Below, piece by piece: positions 16,727 to 31,656 of a stretch of 36,497 nt of DNA. Source of the stretch: a virus. A program made the translations under genes and the position numbers. The stretch is taken from IMG/VR virus record IMGVR_UViG_3300048017_000050, positions 1-36,497 of that record; one strand, given 5' to 3'. Position 1 is the first letter of the stretch, and every line of letters begins with the position of its first letter. The notes under the pieces are model-generated. The model was not told where the DNA came from. It saw nothing but the letters and a program-made list of their open reading frames with translations, and did not search any database.

Positions 16727-17325
16727 ACCGCTACTCCTTCGCAAACGAGCCGTAGCTGCGCTTCTTGTGCGGCCCCCGCAGCAGCACCCGCAGCAGCCTC
16801 CGCAGCATCCCCCGCAGCATCCCGCGCAGCCCTCGCAGCAGCCCCCGCAGCAGCACCCGCAGCAGCCTCCGCAGCATCCCCCGCAGCATCCCGCGCAGCC
16901 CTCGCAGCAGCCCTCGCAGCAGCCCACGCAGCAGTCCCCGCAGCAGCACCCGCAGCATCCCTCGCAGCATCCCCCGCAGCAGCCCACGCAGCACCCGCAG
17001 CATCCTCCGCCGCAGCCAACTCATTTTTTGTTGCCTCGCCGTTTGCAAAGCGTTCGGCCACGTCTAGCGCGTCTAAGCTGCTCTTGTTCGTCATCAGGTG
17101 CTGCACCTGACGAGCGCACCAGACCGCATAGAGTCGTATTTCTCGGTCGTGGCCGTCAACTGCACGCAAGCACCACAAAGCATCGTCCAAGCCATTGCTG
17201 TCGAGAATGGTTGTGATTGCTAACGGCTCGTCATCTGCTGCCGTTTTACCTAAGTACTCTAATAGTTTTTTCCAGCCATCGGCGCAAGGGCTGTGTTTGC
17301 GGATTTTGTTAAGGGTTGTTTTCAT
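16723..17325 (-). CDS. Imm5-like protein with alanine-rich repeat
   Basis: The 200-residue protein has a conserved N-terminal part: MKTTLNKIRKHSPCADGWKK, then 'DDEPLAITTILDSNGLDDALW' and 'EIRLYAVWCARQVQHLM'. It then carries a long alanine-rich helix of repeats such as 'AARDAAGDAAEAAAGAAAG' (about residues 107-190). This is the layout of the phage and prophage proteins annotated as 'putative immunity protein' (Imm5-like). An antitoxin or immunity function has not been shown for phage copies, to my knowledge. I chose ATG 17325 because it overlaps the upstream stop (ATGA). The tract is built from GCN codons, so it is open in nearly all frames and spawns long false ORFs on both strands. Confidence 0.8.
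   Translation of the reverse strand: MKTTLNKIRKHSPCADGWKKLLEYLGKTAADDEPLAITTILDSNGLDDALWCLRAVDGHDREIRLYAVWCARQVQHLMTNKSSLDALDVAERFANGEATKNELAAAEDAAGAAWAAAGDAARDAAGAAAGTAAWAAARAAARAARDAAGDAAEAAAGAAAGAAARAARDAAGDAAEAAAGAAAGAAQEAQLRLVCEGVAV
16772..16913 (-). repeat. Tandem duplication of 69 bp inside the alanine tract
   Basis: Bases 16772-16840 are repeated directly at 16841-16909, with 3 to 4 further matching bases. The unit is 69 bp, or 23 codons, so the duplication keeps the frame. Both copies encode the same series of short Ala/Arg/Asp/Gly motifs. A wider periodicity of 3 and 12-15 bp is present around it, typical of slippage or unequal crossing over. Confidence 0.85.
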
Positions 17326-25949: not shown

Positions 25950-26227
25950 AGTTCCACCTCAAAAATATCTTCGCCTTGGGGCTGTGTGACGTGTTCACTC
26001 AAGGGTTGCCAATCCCAAGCGCCTATGTTAACGAAATGATTCAGCTTTTCATACATTTTGACGTAATCGGCTGTGCTCATGCTCGCGCCGTATGGCGAGT
26101 AAACGCGCTTTTCTACGCCCTTGCTTTTTTGCCGCTTATGCTTGCCTGTGCATTTGGCGTGTTCTGCCAGAAACTTGGCCGGGTTTAGCGTTTTGTATGT
26201 GGCTTTGCCAATAGTGATTGTTTGCAT
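25946..26227 (-). CDS. Unknown protein (93 aa) with two-hairpin leader
   Basis: The protein begins MQTITIGKATYKTLNPAKFL and contains a basic middle 'CTGKHKRQKSKGVEKRVYS' and 'MSTADYVKMYEKLNHF'. No family recognised; lysine-rich and soluble. Its leader (26228-26285) repeats the structure found before the 139-residue gene, ending in AAAGGTAAATTATG. Confidence 0.75.
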   Translation of the reverse strand: MQTITIGKATYKTLNPAKFLAEHAKCTGKHKRQKSKGVEKRVYSPYGASMSTADYVKMYEKLNHFVNIGAWDWQPLSEHVTQPQGEDIFEVEL

Positions 26228-26285
26228 AATTTACCTTTGGTCTTACCGGGACGAATTGCCCGCATATGGCCACAGCATGGCCATA
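26228..26285 (-). promoter_or_regulatory. Two-hairpin leader, copy 1
   Basis: Read on the - strand it has an 8-bp stem (TATGGCCA/TGGCCATA, 26265-26272 and 26278-26285), then a 4-bp stem CGGG/CCCG (26247-26262) with a CAATT loop, then AAAGGTAAATTATG. Copy 2 at 26715-26774 has the same plan with a different first stem. It fills the gap between two genes. Confidence 0.7.
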
Positions 26286-26294
26286 CACTGACAG

Positions 26295-26714
26295 TCAGAG
26301 CGTTGCAAGGGTGCGGTACTTAGCTACGCGGGCGGCACTGGCGGCCAAGCGTGCCACGGCTGCGCGGTACTCAGTAGGCCAGTATTGGCCAATTGTGTAG
26401 TCAATGGATAAATCAGCGCCCAAGGTTAGACGCCCGCCCCGGCTGCATTCAATTAAGTCCGCGTCAGTCACGCCCTGAGCATAGGCGGCGGCCAACGCTT
26501 CGCGCACATCGTCCAGTTGTTTACTGATAGCACGCGCTTCGCTAAAATACGCGGCGCGGCCGTTAATATCGCGGTAATCGCTGCAATAGTCCCGAAAGTC
26601 AAGGCCGGGGCGCTTGGCCGCGTACATGGCCAGAGCGCGGATACCGTCTGGCACGTTGTCAAGAACTGCCCATTTTGGCAACAGTGAAGCGGCGCGGGGT
26701 GTTAATTGAACCAT
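26295..26714 (-). CDS. Unknown helical protein (139 aa) with two-hairpin leader
   Basis: The protein begins MVQLTPRAASLLPKWAVLDN and contains 'PDGIRALAMYAAKRPGLDFR' and 'ISKQLDDVREALAAAYAQGV', with an alanine-rich C-terminal helix. No motif recognised. Its leader (26715-26774) has the same two-hairpin structure as the one before the 93-residue gene. Confidence 0.75.
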   Translation of the reverse strand: MVQLTPRAASLLPKWAVLDNVPDGIRALAMYAAKRPGLDFRDYCSDYRDINGRAAYFSEARAISKQLDDVREALAAAYAQGVTDADLIECSRGGRLTLGADLSIDYTIGQYWPTEYRAAVARLAASAARVAKYRTLATL

Positions 26715-26774
26715 AATTTACCTTTACTGTTATCGGGTGAAATTGCCCGACTATGCGCATGATGTACGCGCATA
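26715..26774 (-). promoter_or_regulatory. Two-hairpin leader, copy 2
   Basis: Read on the - strand it has a 7-bp stem (TATGCGC/GCGCATA, 26752-26758 and 26768-26774), then a 5-bp stem TCGGG/CCCGA (26733-26750) with a CAATT loop, then AAAGGTAAATTATG. The first stem differs from copy 1 but keeps its pairing, so it is covariant. Confidence 0.7.
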
Positions 26775-27062: not shown

Positions 27063-27097
27063 CAAATATTTTATAGGTGGTTTCCCTAGGTTTCGAG

Positions 27098-27423
27098 TTG
27101 TGGGTCATTTTGTGGGTCATGTTGCCAAAATGTTGTCACTTTGTGGGTCAAGATTACTCATCAATTTGATAGCAAGGTATTAGCGTGGGCGTTGACGTGC
27201 GGGGATTTGTGGGTCATGTTGCCATTTATATTCTAGACACTATCAATAAAATTATAAATATAGGTTAGTGGGCGAATTGACCCACAACACCACGCGGACG
27301 CCGGACGTGCTCAAAAAAAGTGACAACATGACCCACAAAGGCCTTTTTTCGGGCTAGTGCGTTGATTTATAAGGGTTTTTTGTTGTCATTTAGGGCTAAA
27401 ATTATGACAACATTTTGACAACA
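27098..27423. repeat. Iteron-like array, candidate origin or operator
   Basis: TTGTGGGTCA occurs on the + strand at 27098, 27110, 27141 and 27207 and in inverted form (TGACCCACAA) at 27278 and 27329. TGTTGTCA occurs at 27131 and 27381, inverted at 27321, 27405 and 27416. The joined form TTGTGGGTCATGTTGYCA is found at 27110, 27207 and, inverted, at 27321. An AT-rich stretch (about 27223-27266) lies between direct and inverted sites. The 419-bp gap holds no other gene. This is the layout of an iteron origin with a DNA-unwinding element, or of a regulator-binding region between divergent genes. Confidence 0.78.
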
Positions 27424-27425
27424 CA

Positions 27426-27647
27426 ATGACCTACACTTTAGCTATGGTTAGACCTTGCAAAATTGATACAGTTAATTTCTTCCGTCGCATCAGCGACGAC
27501 GAGCGAGCTATTTTGTTAGCTGCTGGCGCGGGTGACTTATCGCGTGGTTTTCGGGATATGCTTGCCCTTTATGCTGCATTGCACAATGCCGGTTTTCGCC
27601 CTGGTGACGATATAAGTGATTGGCTAATAGTTGCTAAAGTTAAATAA
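27426..27647 (+). CDS. Small protein next to iteron-like array (73 aa)
   Basis: The protein begins MTYTLAMVRPCKIDTVNFFR and contains 'ISDDERAILLAAGAGDLSRGF', a possible helix-turn-helix-like segment, then 'DMLALYAALHNAGFRPGDD'. It starts 2 bp after the last TGACAACA copy and no clear ribosome-binding site is present. A DNA-binding protein acting on the array would fit its place, but no family was recognised. If real, it is the only rightward gene before the terminase. Confidence 0.58.
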   Translation: MTYTLAMVRPCKIDTVNFFRRISDDERAILLAAGAGDLSRGFRDMLALYAALHNAGFRPGDDISDWLIVAKVK

Positions 27648-27730
27648 CTTTTAGTCATATAGACTATGTGGCTAGGTATGCGGATAAAGCACCGCCCGGA
27701 TCCCGTTCCTTTTGCATAGTGTTTTCTGTC

Positions 27731-27815
27731 ACCAGGCCACCAGGCCACCAGGCCACCAGGCCACCAGGCCACCAGGCCACCAGGCCACCAGGCCACCAGG
27801 CCACCAGGCCACCAG
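27731..27815 (+). repeat. Ten tandem copies of ACCAGGCC
   Basis: Ten exact 8-bp copies are followed by ACCAG. It lies 200 bp upstream of the small terminase gene in a 364-bp gap without a convincing gene. Every unit contains CCAGG (a Dcm site) and a GGCC palindrome. Because 8 is not a multiple of 3, translated frames repeat every 24 bp and are all open, which creates a false ORF on the - strand. Confidence 0.95.
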
Positions 27816-27823
27816 CTACATGT

Positions 27824-27839
27824 TAGTAAGCGCTTACTA
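27824..27839. repeat. Perfect 16-bp palindrome
   Basis: TAGTAAGCGCTTACTA is its own reverse complement. It lies 8 bp after the ACCAGGCC array and has the size and symmetry of a protein-binding operator or a small cruciform. It has no T tail and so is not a terminator. Confidence 0.85.
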
Positions 27840-27882
27840 TTAGATATGTAAGTGAGTGCTGACTGGGTGGCCTTGATTGCAT

Positions 27883-27899
27883 GGGGGGGAGGGGTAGGG
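27883..27899 (+). other. G-quadruplex motif
   Basis: G7-A-G4-TA-G3 gives four runs of at least three G within 17 bases. GGGTAGG (27892-27898) can instead pair with CCTACCC (27927-27933) in a hairpin, so the two structures compete. It lies about 110 bp upstream of the small terminase start. Confidence 0.75.
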
Positions 27900-28011
27900 C
27901 TGTCAGTCAAAAAATTACAGGAGCCACCTACCCTCTGAAAAAAGCAAAATAGCAATTTTTGTAGTCAGGCTATTTGACCTACAATTCCAGCAACTTCCCG
28001 AAAGGATAAAA

Positions 28012-28353
28012 GTGGAAAAGAAAAAACGTGGTCGGCCTATTAAGATGACGATTCAGCGGTACGCCGATAACCCGCCGCTGGTACTTCCAAAGACCGACCA
28101 CCAGCGCGTCAAGGAACTCAAAGAGCTGATGATTCGATCTGGCGGCAAGGACGTAGCCGAGAAGGTAATCCAGATTGCCTTGAACGACGAACACCCCGGT
28201 CAGATGGCGGCGCTTAAGATGTGCATGGATAGGACGCTACCAGTCAGCATGTTTGAAAAAGACAAGCACCAGCGCAGTGCAGTGACGATTAACATAACCG
28301 GGCTGGGGCAAACCCCTACGGTTATTGACCAAGAGGATGTGACTGATGTCTGA
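28012..28353 (+). CDS. Terminase small subunit
   Basis: The 113-residue protein starts at GTG 28012 after AAAGGA. It has a basic GRPIK-type start and 'SGGKDVAEKVIQIALNDEHPGQMAALKMCMDRTLPVSMFEKD', quoted in part, which is the conserved helical core of small terminase-like proteins in podophages. It lies 8 bp into the large subunit gene. It would recognise the packaging start on the phage DNA. A -10-like TACAAT lies at 27980-27985 with only a weak -35, so the late promoter is not certain. Confidence 0.85.
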   Translation: MEKKKRGRPIKMTIQRYADNPPLVLPKTDHQRVKELKELMIRSGGKDVAEKVIQIALNDEHPGQMAALKMCMDRTLPVSMFEKDKHQRSAVTINITGLGQTPTVIDQEDVTDV

Positions 28354-29605
28354 CCTCAACTTTTCATTGCTGCCGTGGCAGCAAGAGGTTTACACCGACC
28401 AGACGCGCTTTAAAGTGATTGCCGCTGGGAGGCGTTGCGGCAAGTCAAGGCTGGCGGCTACCACCCTGATTATCGAGGGATTGCGCTGCCCACCGGGTTC
28501 TGCGGTGCTATACGTGTCGCCAACAATGGGGCAGTCGCGGCAGATTATCTGGGATTTGCTGCTGGACTTGGGGCGTGAGGTAATTCAAAGCAGCCACGTT
28601 AATAACTTGGATATAACGCTGATTAATGGCGCAAGGATATACGTACGCGGAGCTGACCGCCCGGACACGCTGCGCGGCGTTTCCCTAACCTATGCCGTTT
28701 TGGATGAGGTGGCTGATATTAAGCCTGAGGCTTGGGAACAAGTTATTCGAGCATCTTTGTCGGACAGGAAGGGCCGGGCGATGTTTATTGGCACGCCAAA
28801 AGGCAGAAACTGGTTTCACGACCTGTGGAATCTTGGCCAGGACAACCAAGACCCAGACTGGAAGTCTTGGCACTTCACCACGGCAGATAACCCATTGATT
28901 GATGCGTCTGAGATTGAGAGCGCCAAGAAGACGTTATCTAGCTTTGCGTTTAAGCAGGAGTTCTTAGCCAGCTTCAGCAATGCGGGTTCTGACCTGTTTA
29001 AAGAGGAATGGATTAAGTACGGTGTCGAGCCTGAGCACGGCAGCTACTTTATCGCGGTTGACTTGGCTGGCTTTGAGGAAGTGGCGAAACAGGCCGCTAA
29101 TAGTAAGAAGCGGCTAGACGAAACTTCTATTGCCATTGTTAAGGTGACGGACGATGGGGTCTGGTTTGTCAAAGAGATTCAGCATGGGCGGTGGGATATT
29201 CGGGAAACCGCAGCTAATATACTGCTGGCTATGCGCGAGTACAGGCCGCAAAGTATTGGGATTGAAAAGGGCGCGCTGAAGAATGCGGTGCTGCCGTATC
29301 TGAGCGACCTGATGCGTAAGAATAACGTATACGGTCACATCCAAGACCTGACGCACGGCAACCGTAAGAAGGCAGATAGGATTATCTGGTCGCTACAAGG
29401 GCGCTTTGAGCATGGTCGGATTATCTTGAACAGGGAAGAAAAGTGGGATGTTTTTGTAGACCAACTTATAATGTTCCCATCGCCTGGCGTTCACGATGAC
29501 CTGCCAGACTCGCTGGCCTATATCGACCAGTTGGCGGTTACATCGTACTTTGAGCAAGCCGATGAAGACGAATGGGAGCCTGTAGATATAATCGCGGGTG
29601 TTTAG
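28346..29605 (+). CDS. Terminase large subunit
   Basis: The 419-residue protein has a packaging ATPase with Walker A 'AGRRCGKS' (residues 27-34), Walker B 'YAVLDEVAD' (about 116-124; Asp120, Glu121), the coupling motif 'GTPKG' (149-153), and a C-terminal RNase H-like nuclease: 'FIAVDLAGFEE' near 231, 'IGIEKGAL' and 'HDDLPDSLAYID' near the end, supplying the acidic metal ligands. It packs the concatemer into proheads through the portal and cuts it. The family resembles podophage terminases that use headful packaging, in line with the circular assembly. Confidence 0.93.
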   Translation: MSDLNFSLLPWQQEVYTDQTRFKVIAAGRRCGKSRLAATTLIIEGLRCPPGSAVLYVSPTMGQSRQIIWDLLLDLGREVIQSSHVNNLDITLINGARIYVRGADRPDTLRGVSLTYAVLDEVADIKPEAWEQVIRASLSDRKGRAMFIGTPKGRNWFHDLWNLGQDNQDPDWKSWHFTTADNPLIDASEIESAKKTLSSFAFKQEFLASFSNAGSDLFKEEWIKYGVEPEHGSYFIAVDLAGFEEVAKQAANSKKRLDETSIAIVKVTDDGVWFVKEIQHGRWDIRETAANILLAMREYRPQSIGIEKGALKNAVLPYLSDLMRKNNVYGHIQDLTHGNRKKADRIIWSLQGRFEHGRIILNREEKWDVFVDQLIMFPSPGVHDDLPDSLAYIDQLAVTSYFEQADEDEWEPVDIIAGV

Positions 29606-29625
29606 CCACCAATAAGAGGTCTAGC

Positions 29626-31656
29626 ATGGATCAAAACGAATTCGATGAACCAACAGAGAATGACAAAGAGCTAACCGCCTTTGTTGTTGACCATTGCGAC
29701 CGCTGGCGCGATTGGCGTGATACCAACTATCTGTCTGACTACCTAGAATACGAGCGTATTTTCCGTGGTGAGTGGGCTTCTGAGGACAAAACTCGGGAAT
29801 CTGAGCGTTCAAGAATCGTAACTCCAGCTACCCAGCAGGCTGTAGAGACACGCCACGCTGAAATCATGGAAGCTATCTTTGGTCAGGGTGACTTTTTTGA
29901 TATTGAAGATGACCTGAAAGACATAGACGGTAATCCATTAGACGTTGAGATGCTCAAAGCCCAGCTAATGGAAGACTTCAAGCTCGACAAGATCAGGAAG
30001 GCCATTGACCAAATTGAGCTGATGGCTGAAATCTACGGTACTGGCATTGGCGAGATCGTAGTCAAGACCGAAAAGGTGTTTGAGCCAGCAACGCAGGCAA
30101 TACCTGGTCAGATGGGTCAGGCAGCGATTGGTGTGGTTGAAAAAAGCCGCATTGCAGTAAAAATCATGCCCGTCAACCCCAAGAACTTCCTATTTGACCC
30201 TAACGGCACAAGCATTGACGACTGCATGGGCGTGGCAATTGAGAAGTATGTTGGCGTTCATAAGATTGTGCAAGGTATGGAAAAGGGTATCTACCGCAAG
30301 GTTGACCTTGGCACTGATTCAGAAGACAACGACCTAGAGCCAACGCAGGAAGTGACGCAGTATAAGGACGAAAAGGTTAAATTGTTGACCTATTACGGTC
30401 TTGTACCGCGTGAGTATCTTCAGAACCTTGAGAACAACGAAGAAGTTGTTGACTTGTTTCCCGAAGACTCGGTGGCTGATGATTACAGCAACATGGTTGA
30501 GGCCATTATTGTGATTGCCAATGATGGTTTGCTGCTCAAGGCAGAAGAAAACCCATACATGATGAAGGACAGGCCAGTCATTTCGTACCAAGACGACACT
30601 GTGCCTAACCGCCTATTAGGGCGGGGGACGGTGGAGAAGTCCTACAACATGCAAAAAGCGATTGACGCTCAGGTGCGTAGCCATCTTGACTCGCTGGCGC
30701 TGACTACTAGCCCCATGATGGGCATGGATGCAACCCGTTTGCCTCGCGGTGCTAAGTTTGAGGTGAAGCCAGGCAAGGCATTCATGGTCAACGGCAACCC
30801 TGCTGAAATTCTGTACCCGTTCAAGTTTGGTGAGACAAGCCTGAACAATCTGAACACAGCAAAAGAGTTTGAACGTATGTTGCTACAGGCCACAGGTACG
30901 ATGGACAGTCAAGGCATGGTTAGTCAAGGAAACCGTGACGGTGCTGGTTTGAGTATGGCAGTTGCTACCATCATTAAGAAATACAAACGCACCCTGGTGA
31001 ACTTCCAAGAGGACTTCCTGATTCCGTTCATTCAAAAGGCGGCATTTCGGTATATGCAGTTTGACCCTGAGCGTTATCCATCAGTGGATATGCGCTTTAT
31101 TCCTACCGCTACGCTAGGCATTATTGCCCGTGAGTACGAGCAGCAGCAGTTCATTGGGTTGTTGCAGACACTTGGCCCTAATACTCCAGTGTTACCGCTA
31201 ATTCTTAAAGGTATTTTGACCAATTCCAGCTTGTCTAACAGGTATGAATTAATGGCGGCGCTTGATAAAATGAGCCAGCCAGACCCGCAAGCCCAGCAGA
31301 TGAAGCAAGCGCAAGAACAACTGGCAATGCAGGCAGCGCAGGCTCAGATTGCTGTCAATACCACTCAAGCAGAACAGAATCGGGCAGAGGCGCAGAAGTT
31401 GATGACTGAGGCGCAGCTTATGCCTGCTGAAACGCAAGCTAAACTAAGCGCTAGTCTTACCAAGAACTTGCCAAATGAAGATGCAGCTAATGCAAGAGAG
31501 TTTGACAAGCGTGTCAAGATTGCCGAGCTTATGCTTAAAGAGGCCGACATTAAGAACAAGTCCAAGATCGTCGAGTTGCAGATGGCAAACAAGCAAGAAA
31601 ACTTACAAGCCGTTGAAAACGACTTTCTTGACCAACTTTCTGGGGCGTTGAAATGA
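29626..31656 (+). CDS. Portal protein
   Basis: The 676-residue protein is the size of P22-like portals. Its N-terminus contains '[20 protein letters not shown]', a DNA- and scaffold-facing core, then '[20 protein letters not shown]', '[21 protein letters not shown]' and a long C-terminal coiled-coil barrel (Gln/Ala-rich, '[20 protein letters not shown]'). It follows the large terminase and is the ring through which DNA enters and leaves. I chose ATG 29626, 6 bp after AAGAGGT; an upstream GTG would overlap the terminase. Confidence 0.9.

Follow-up and report, generated by a model that had tools for sequence, protein, structure and literature searches.

Few phages have mapped packaging sites. 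In SPP1, according to the part of the published account cited here (PMC6316719), the small terminase subunit (TerS) binds pacL and pacR, and the large subunit (TerL) cuts pacC between them; a review, in the sections cited, calls the DNA-binding mode of small terminases unclear and controversial (PMC9611059). The a sequence of duck plague virus, as the cited section of PMC10763189 has it, comprises direct repeats of variable copy number, pac1 (C-runs around an A-run), 32 + 32 bp with the cut, and pac2, which starts with an A-run; the repeat copy number varies among strains and progeny, and replication is unaffected. Human mitochondrial CSB II, G5-6AG7-8, forms DNA, RNA and hybrid G-quadruplexes (G4) (PMC8780183, in part), and in pSM19035 Omega/parS, a ribbon-helix-helix (RHH) protein occupies 7–10 consecutive 7-bp repeats (PMC9499535, in part).

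Here, we describe an element consisting of a G-run, a spacer and an A-run, which many uncultured phages carry ahead of their packaging genes and which probably marks the packaging start. No description of such an element was found in the literature (open-licence PMC papers). It resembles SPP1 pac in that two recognition blocks would lie around a cut region beside the small-terminase gene; however, the SPP1 site overlaps with gene 1 and its promoters, the cited part of that account mentions no G-run/A-run pair, and the present site is predicted from sequence (PMC6316719). The herpesvirus a sequence matches our locus (array, G-run, fixed spacer, A-run) in order and logic, but its spacer measures 64 bp against 41–49 bp here, its pac2 includes a CG block beyond the A-run, no sequence homology is claimed, and the cut at our locus is predicted (PMC10763189, in part). 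Lambda- and PaP3-type cos sites are likewise cis sites read by TerS and cut by TerL (PMC9611059, in the sections cited), whereas no cohesive-end sequence was recognised at the locus in question. With CSB II (PMC8780183, in part) it shares a run of G, one A and a run of G, but the phage element has the longer run first (G7-9AG4-6), an A-run at a near-fixed distance, and a place before terminase genes. Omega/parS provides a model for a small protein encoded upstream, ORF73, on arrays of 7–9-bp units, although the RHH fold of ORF73 is predicted and the phage arrays are often absent (PMC9499535, in part).

The terminase region of the window and its relatives

The window, that is, the whole stretch of DNA analysed, is a 36,497 bp uncultured virus record with an exact 127-bp repeat at its ends, 127 bp being a common size for an assembly k-mer overlap. 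An earlier, sequence-only reading spoke of a circular assembly, which it took to imply permuted or concatemeric ends; such a repeat does not distinguish headful from fixed ends. On the + strand, TerL (28346–29605; phrog_2, 1.7e-47; PF03237, 4e-14) and the portal protein (29572–31656; phrog_1216, 2.2e-38; PF23899, 5.7e-16) are securely assigned. Read from its first start codon, the portal ORF would share 34 nt with the end of TerL; a later start is likely. The putative TerS (113 aa; 28012–28353, + strand) is named for its place and for a 48-member family. Its earlier designation as the small terminase is favoured by its position before TerL; on the other side, a profile search gave no PHROG or Pfam match, and the structure model (pLDDT 57) was too poor for a fold search. 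Pfam and PHROG scans of the family returned weak, scattered matches only, with a weak match to Pfam AT_hook in 14 of the 48 members. The N-terminus carries a KKRGRP stretch which, those weak matches apart, we take to be AT-hook-like.

Before the putative TerS lies a gap of 364 bp (27648–28011), bounded by the stop of the upstream ORF at 27647 and the next start at 28012. All parts previously noticed there, ten full copies of ACCAGGCC, a 16-bp palindrome and a G motif, were confirmed. The gap also holds a TACAAT word, between the conserved element described below and TerS, and a TGACCTACAATT word (27975–27986, + strand; repeat family D4), a possible promoter or operator word, which is repeated as TGACCTACACTT at 27427, before ORF73.

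By DNA similarity, the window has no known phage relatives, and no cultured close relative was found; matches to its TerL in 50,697 phage records were all below 60% identity. We therefore refer throughout to a set obtained by TerL search, the best 80 of at least 600 relatives, which with the window makes 81 loci: six have no TerS homolog in the available DNA and six begin at most 60 nt from TerS, leaving 69 usable loci. MW202524 (L260, Manatee Spring), in which a G-run occurs at the end of the terS gene, was left out of the element counts. In the cellular genome collection, the sole close TerL match (82%) is a beta-proteobacterial MAG contig (L256), which has the G element and hints at a beta-proteobacterial host.

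A conserved element upstream of the terminase genes

The G motif GGGGGGGAGGGGTAGGG (27883–27899) opens a core that extends from 27883 to 27943. Its left half, G7-A-G4 (27883–27894, + strand), has counterparts at most 1.5 kb upstream of TerS in 67 of the 69 loci; in the two others, L048 and L093, the element is found at about 1.6 kb, so that it is kept in all 69 usable loci (from the best 80 of at least 600 relatives, and the window). The spacer (43 nt; 27895–27937), our predicted cut region, is near-constant in length and variable in sequence, and ends with a C-rich block (27924–27935). The right half is an A6 run (CTCTG-AAAAAA; 27938–27943, + strand).

Throughout the window family, the pattern is G7-9-A-G4-6, a spacer mostly of 41–43 bp, then A5-6. 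In the alignment of 44 sequences, G7-9 A G4-5 is followed by a middle part ending in AATTTRYRGG..CC plus a C-rich stretch, and this by GAAAAAG. Measured from where the second G-run stops, the A-run comes after 41–43 nt in 57 of 67 loci and after 39–44 nt in 62; one member has 69 nt, and four lack an A5. The distance from the core to TerS is as a rule 71–185 nt, but 259–954 nt in eight relatives and about 1.6 kb in two, a variability more readily reconciled with a DNA site than with a leader RNA.

Over 60 relatives, the 70-nt G element is 0.69–0.82 identical, against a shuffled baseline of 0.48. The 150 nt upstream of the G-run have a mean identity of 0.53–0.64 in pairs with TerS genes less than 95% identical (shuffled, 0.52), and are at or near the shuffled baseline where the terminase genes are less than 80% identical. 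Between the window and its nearest relative in this set (TerS gene, 0.82), the values are 0.51 for the upstream 150 nt and 0.80 for the element.

The G- and C-runs could pair in a hairpin. A 151-nt stretch folds as RNA with -46.2 kcal/mol (z -2.1) and as DNA with z of only -0.6, for which reason the DNA hairpin is unremarkable. This hairpin shows no covariation (score 0.147 versus 0.148 for shuffled alignments; no compensated pair by RNAalifold), and Rfam yielded no family, with one chance match at E 4.8. A structured RNA element or leader was rejected on the absence of covariation and of an Rfam family. Of the earlier idea that a G4 competes with a hairpin, the G motif stands, and its partner is the unremarkable DNA hairpin just described.

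The tandem array and the variable interval

The array consists of 10.8 copies of CACCAGGC (27730–27815; TRF period 8, 100% matches, score 172), with ten full ACCAGGCC units at 27731–27810; overlapping 16-mers of the unit occur nine times in the window and not at all on the opposite strand. Chance as its origin was ruled out by the TRF score and by the frequencies of such arrays: scores of at least 50 were reached in 21 of 59 segments upstream of the G-run, versus 5 of 295 control segments from the relatives and 1 of 295 shuffled segments (300 nt). Between the array and the core lies the perfect 16-bp palindrome TAGTAAGCGCTTACTA (27824–27839); similar dyads occur in some relatives, and in L060, L067 and L317–L320 they form arrays spaced by about 22 bp.

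Two array units were found in at least 38 viral loci, the L325 contig among them. L047 is the only near-identical strain found to bear the window's own array; this contig, with a TerL 100% identical, begins inside the region with a fold-back, in which the G-run side is joined to the array end (L047:1-150). Unit sizes among relatives are 7, 8, 9, 11, 14, 20 and 22–23 bp, the last in many arrays; several arrays are GGCC-rich, some consist of dyads and some of DnaA boxes. Many relatives have no array at all, including the two with the shortest interval (156 nt). The expectation that copy number may vary between isolates holds in relatives: L324 has 79.8 and L325 45.8 copies of ATGGCCTG, with flanks 98% identical. 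By inspection, ATGGCCTG differs at one base from the window unit read on the opposite strand. As these comparisons indicate, the array is a fast-changing, optional, slippage-prone stretch, specific to its lineage, in the variable interval between ORF73 and the core.

ORF73 (67–73 aa, starting at 27426 or 27444; 27444–27647, + strand) always lies upstream of that interval, and a homolog was present in all 55 relatives with at least 600 nt upstream of the G element. Conversely, a search with ORF73 gave 46 relatives (some contigs shared with the TerL set), and, the window included, 46 of 47 loci have the G element after ORF73; in the 47th (L321), the DNA ends 259 nt after ORF73. Among 278 ORFs before the element in other lineages, no ORF73 homolog was found. 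ORF73 has no convincing match in Pfam, PHROG or PDB (family scans gave weak, scattered matches), and its fold none by Foldseek or VIA. In the AF2 model (pLDDT 86), residues 1–17 are extended and helices span 18–27 and 32–48; DSSP assigns no N-terminal strand in the monomer, and the strand-helix-helix order fits that of RHH DNA-binding proteins, a label we presume. ORF73 is the likeliest phage-encoded binder of the variable interval.

The array, taken by itself, is quite plausibly, though not preferentially, a functionless by-product of slippage, due to a polymerase-stalling G-run or to a site repeatedly cut and rejoined. The near-identical strains with 46 and 80 copies, and the freedom with which unit length and sequence change, are what such an origin would give; the arrays built of DnaA boxes or dyads speak against it, as does the slight tendency of array sequence to follow ORF73 (partial Mantel r 0.16, p 0.008; 38 relatives, kinship partly removed). 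A by-product of this kind is compatible with the core being a packaging site.

The element in other phage lineages

A scan of viral contigs for ATG8AG5 gave at least 120 stretches, of which 119 elements could be placed. Among the matches listed, 80 of the 119 accompany window-family terminase genes (tblastn), and 89 are followed within 3 kb by a TerL open frame on the same strand (86 from the open-frame check and the three family loci L060, L105 and L125), 13 lie less than 1.5 kb before the DNA end, and 17 have none. The open-frame check of these placed elements found no TerL within 3 kb on the opposite strand; in L181, phrog_2 matches one there.

Another pattern (G7AG5, 36–47 nt, C4TTA5) occurs in 26 stretches, 21 of which have a same-strand TerL 748–2082 nt downstream. 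In two further loci (L269, L273), the DNA ends before TerL and the small-terminase gene is kept; L267 and L283 have no terminase, and the element and DnaA boxes of L275 resemble those of the window family. G-run groups E, F and G and nine single matches have no terminase nearby. All told, the element stands near terminase genes in a fixed orientation in 69 of 69 window-family loci, 21 of 26 of the second type and, among the matches listed, 89 of 119 of the open scan.

The TerLs of the second type form a family of their own: BLASTP against the window TerL gives nothing below E 0.06, and the main sub-lineages are only 29–46% identical to each other. PHROG labels the neighbouring genes of lineages A and B as TerL, and phrog_2 also matches the records of L164, L151 and L185; in phage C75C1, the element lies 175 nt before the putative TerS gene. 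The small subunits of the second family are down to 18–24% identical among themselves, and homology between the TerS proteins of the two groups was not detectable (hhalign probability 0.1, from thin alignments); recognition by TerS would therefore be convergent, or the reading would be done by TerL or a host factor.

A G/C-run block and an A-run block at fixed spacing were found in the second family too. The spacer, variable in sequence, is constant in length within each lineage: 47–49 nt in lineage C, 48 in C75C1 and lineage H, 46 in L212 and 45 in lineage A. In lineage B, the position expected for the A-run shows only AAA (as four window-family members lack an A5), and in lineage D the spacer is 41 nt where measurable, L221 being without an A5.

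Some elements have other neighbours. In lineage D (L197, L228 and relatives), G8AG5, 41 nt and A5 stand beside replication genes; in L197, the element precedes a replication-gene cluster with DnaB, and a second-family TerL follows 5.6 kb downstream. L177 and L209 have G8AG7 with a DnaA box 148 nt upstream; in L209, the element precedes a ribonucleotide reductase gene, and no TerL was found in the available DNA.

A proposed packaging site and its alternatives

For an element that is conserved in sequence and strand, near-fixed in spacing, found together with two terminase families and devoid of RNA covariation, we propose, with moderate confidence, that the core (27883–27943: G7AG4, a 43-bp spacer, A6) is the cis site, of pac or cos type, where terminase begins packaging. 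Cis sites tend to travel with the protein that reads them, and we assign the core to packaging because it stays before the terminase genes of two families though the replication genes differ; the variable interval, by contrast, we assign to replication or regulation, since ORF73 and the arrays do not stay with terminase across families. That two simple blocks keep a near-constant distance points to a measured cut between them, as in SPP1 pacL-pacC-pacR and at the herpesvirus pac1/pac2 junction, where repeats of variable copy number likewise lie outside pac1. We infer that a protein binds the core, that this protein is terminase and that it cuts within the spacer. Terminase would make two contacts, with the G-run and, at the opposite side, with the C-rich/A-run block, the fixed spacing would position the nuclease, the concatemer would be cut in the spacer, and packaging would then proceed into one side. 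The ACCAGGCC array would be part of the neighbouring variable interval, dispensable and prone to slippage; in some relatives, that interval would be built from words that proteins bind (DnaA boxes, dyads), and it may serve as an origin or a regulatory module.

Several findings count against a role in packaging: the elements with no terminase nearby (17 of 119, among the matches listed, as well as L267 and L283), the opposite-strand TerL of L181, the place of the lineage D element beside replication genes with TerL 5.6 kb away in L197, the presence, in 18 of 67 relatives, of DnaA boxes beside the core, a pointer to replication, and the unrelated small subunits of the two terminase groups.

Contig left ends were also inspected. 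Of the 55 contigs with a left end at most 6 kb before TerL (from the best 80 of at least 600 relatives), six end within 50 bp at the G-run, where about 0.3 would be expected from a background of 47 contigs (the eight others being L055, L074, L079, L080, L093, L095, L116 and L122). The first bases of these six, L094, L068, L069, L059, L065 and L083, fall in a stretch from 18 nt before to 32 nt after the start of the G-run, those of L065 and L083, by inspection, inside the spacer. We give this excess little weight, because assembly breaks at a G-run or repeat predict the same.

If the core is a packaging site, a simple sequence rule would mark the packaging start and allow the genome ends of uncultured phages to be predicted from their sequences. 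More speculatively, the locus could represent a widespread equivalent, in phages, of the herpesvirus a sequence, with a two-block terminase cut site (G-run, fixed spacer cut mid-way, A-run) and an outer hypervariable array, used by two BLAST-unrelated terminase families and moved with the terminase genes as one module. Terminase would then gauge the distance between two homopolymer-rich blocks rather than read a complex sequence, and the parallel would be relevant to the question whether phages and herpesviruses have not only the packaging motor but also its cis side in common.

It is possible, but rather unlikely, that the whole interval is instead a replication origin, in which the arrays bind an initiator (host DnaA in some lineages, and in others ORF73 or a different protein) and the G-run core is an opening or priming element; an R-loop or hybrid G-quadruplex at G8AG5 would supply the primer, as at mitochondrial CSB II, whose G5-6AG7-8 it resembles (PMC8780183, in part). 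DnaA boxes of the form TTATNCACA, which we take to be the consensus, number 40 in 18,165 nt upstream of the core, where 0.7 would be expected, versus 21 in 555,274 nt elsewhere, an enrichment of 55-fold over the 300 nt ahead of the core. They occur in 18 of 67 relatives, in several arrangements, and not in the window. The 22-bp array unit of L312 contains the word TGTGGATAA, and many other arrays have 22–23-bp units. A window-type DUF5906 gene lies upstream in 12 of 33 long loci, and AAA_25/Toprim or DUF1376 genes in some others; DnaA boxes occur in none of the 12 loci with this primase versus 7 of 21 without (p 0.03, kinship uncorrected), and L058, L111 and L089, which have boxes, carry an AAA_25 primase-helicase-like gene in place of DUF5906. 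As a shared replication gene, PolA was found in 1 of 17 records tried, by a search that may be insensitive. The variable interval may therefore also be an origin in view of the boxes in some relatives. Against the origin reading of the core, it also precedes terminases in lineages A, B, C and H, where DnaA boxes are absent, the near-constant spacer to the A-run has no reason under an R-loop primer, and the + strand showed nothing promoter-like from ORF73 to the core. Should the core belong to an origin after all, it would be a phage G-run priming element like mitochondrial CSB II.

We consider it improbable that the core acts in transcription of the late operon, whether as leader, pause, terminator or activator site. 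It nearly always shares the coding strand with the terminase operon and usually precedes TerS by 71–185 nt, and the TACAAT word stands between the two, but its distance to TerS varies up to 1.6 kb, neither an intrinsic terminator nor a sigma-70 promoter was found between ORF73 and TerS in the window, and the folding analysis gave neither covariation nor an Rfam match beyond the one at E 4.8.

Very unlikely, lastly, is that the ACCAGGCC array is itself the site recognised by TerS: its position before TerS and the recurrence of GGCC-containing arrays in several relatives would suit this, but TerS proteins 84–92% identical to that of the window coexist with unrelated arrays or none, so that the array is not a general sequence-specific TerS site, and array distance, which tracks ORF73, shows no association with TerS distance (r 0.07, p 0.17; the same 38 relatives, kinship partly removed). 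The sequence-only reading, which had the small terminase recognise the repeats of a candidate pac region, was thus probably right about the place and probably wrong about the array, the conserved element being the adjoining G motif.

Other repeats in the window

Ahead of ORF73, at 27097–27430, TTTGTGGGTCATGTTGCCA and ATGACAACAT recur in several copies, direct as well as inverted, like the operators or iterons of a divergent promoter region. Two small minus-strand genes are each preceded by a 44-nt repeat (26225–26268 and 26712–26755), the two copies being 80% alike. An imperfect 12-bp/69-bp tandem repeat at 16772–17017 lies within a minus-strand ORF that reads as a Gly-Cys-rich protein.
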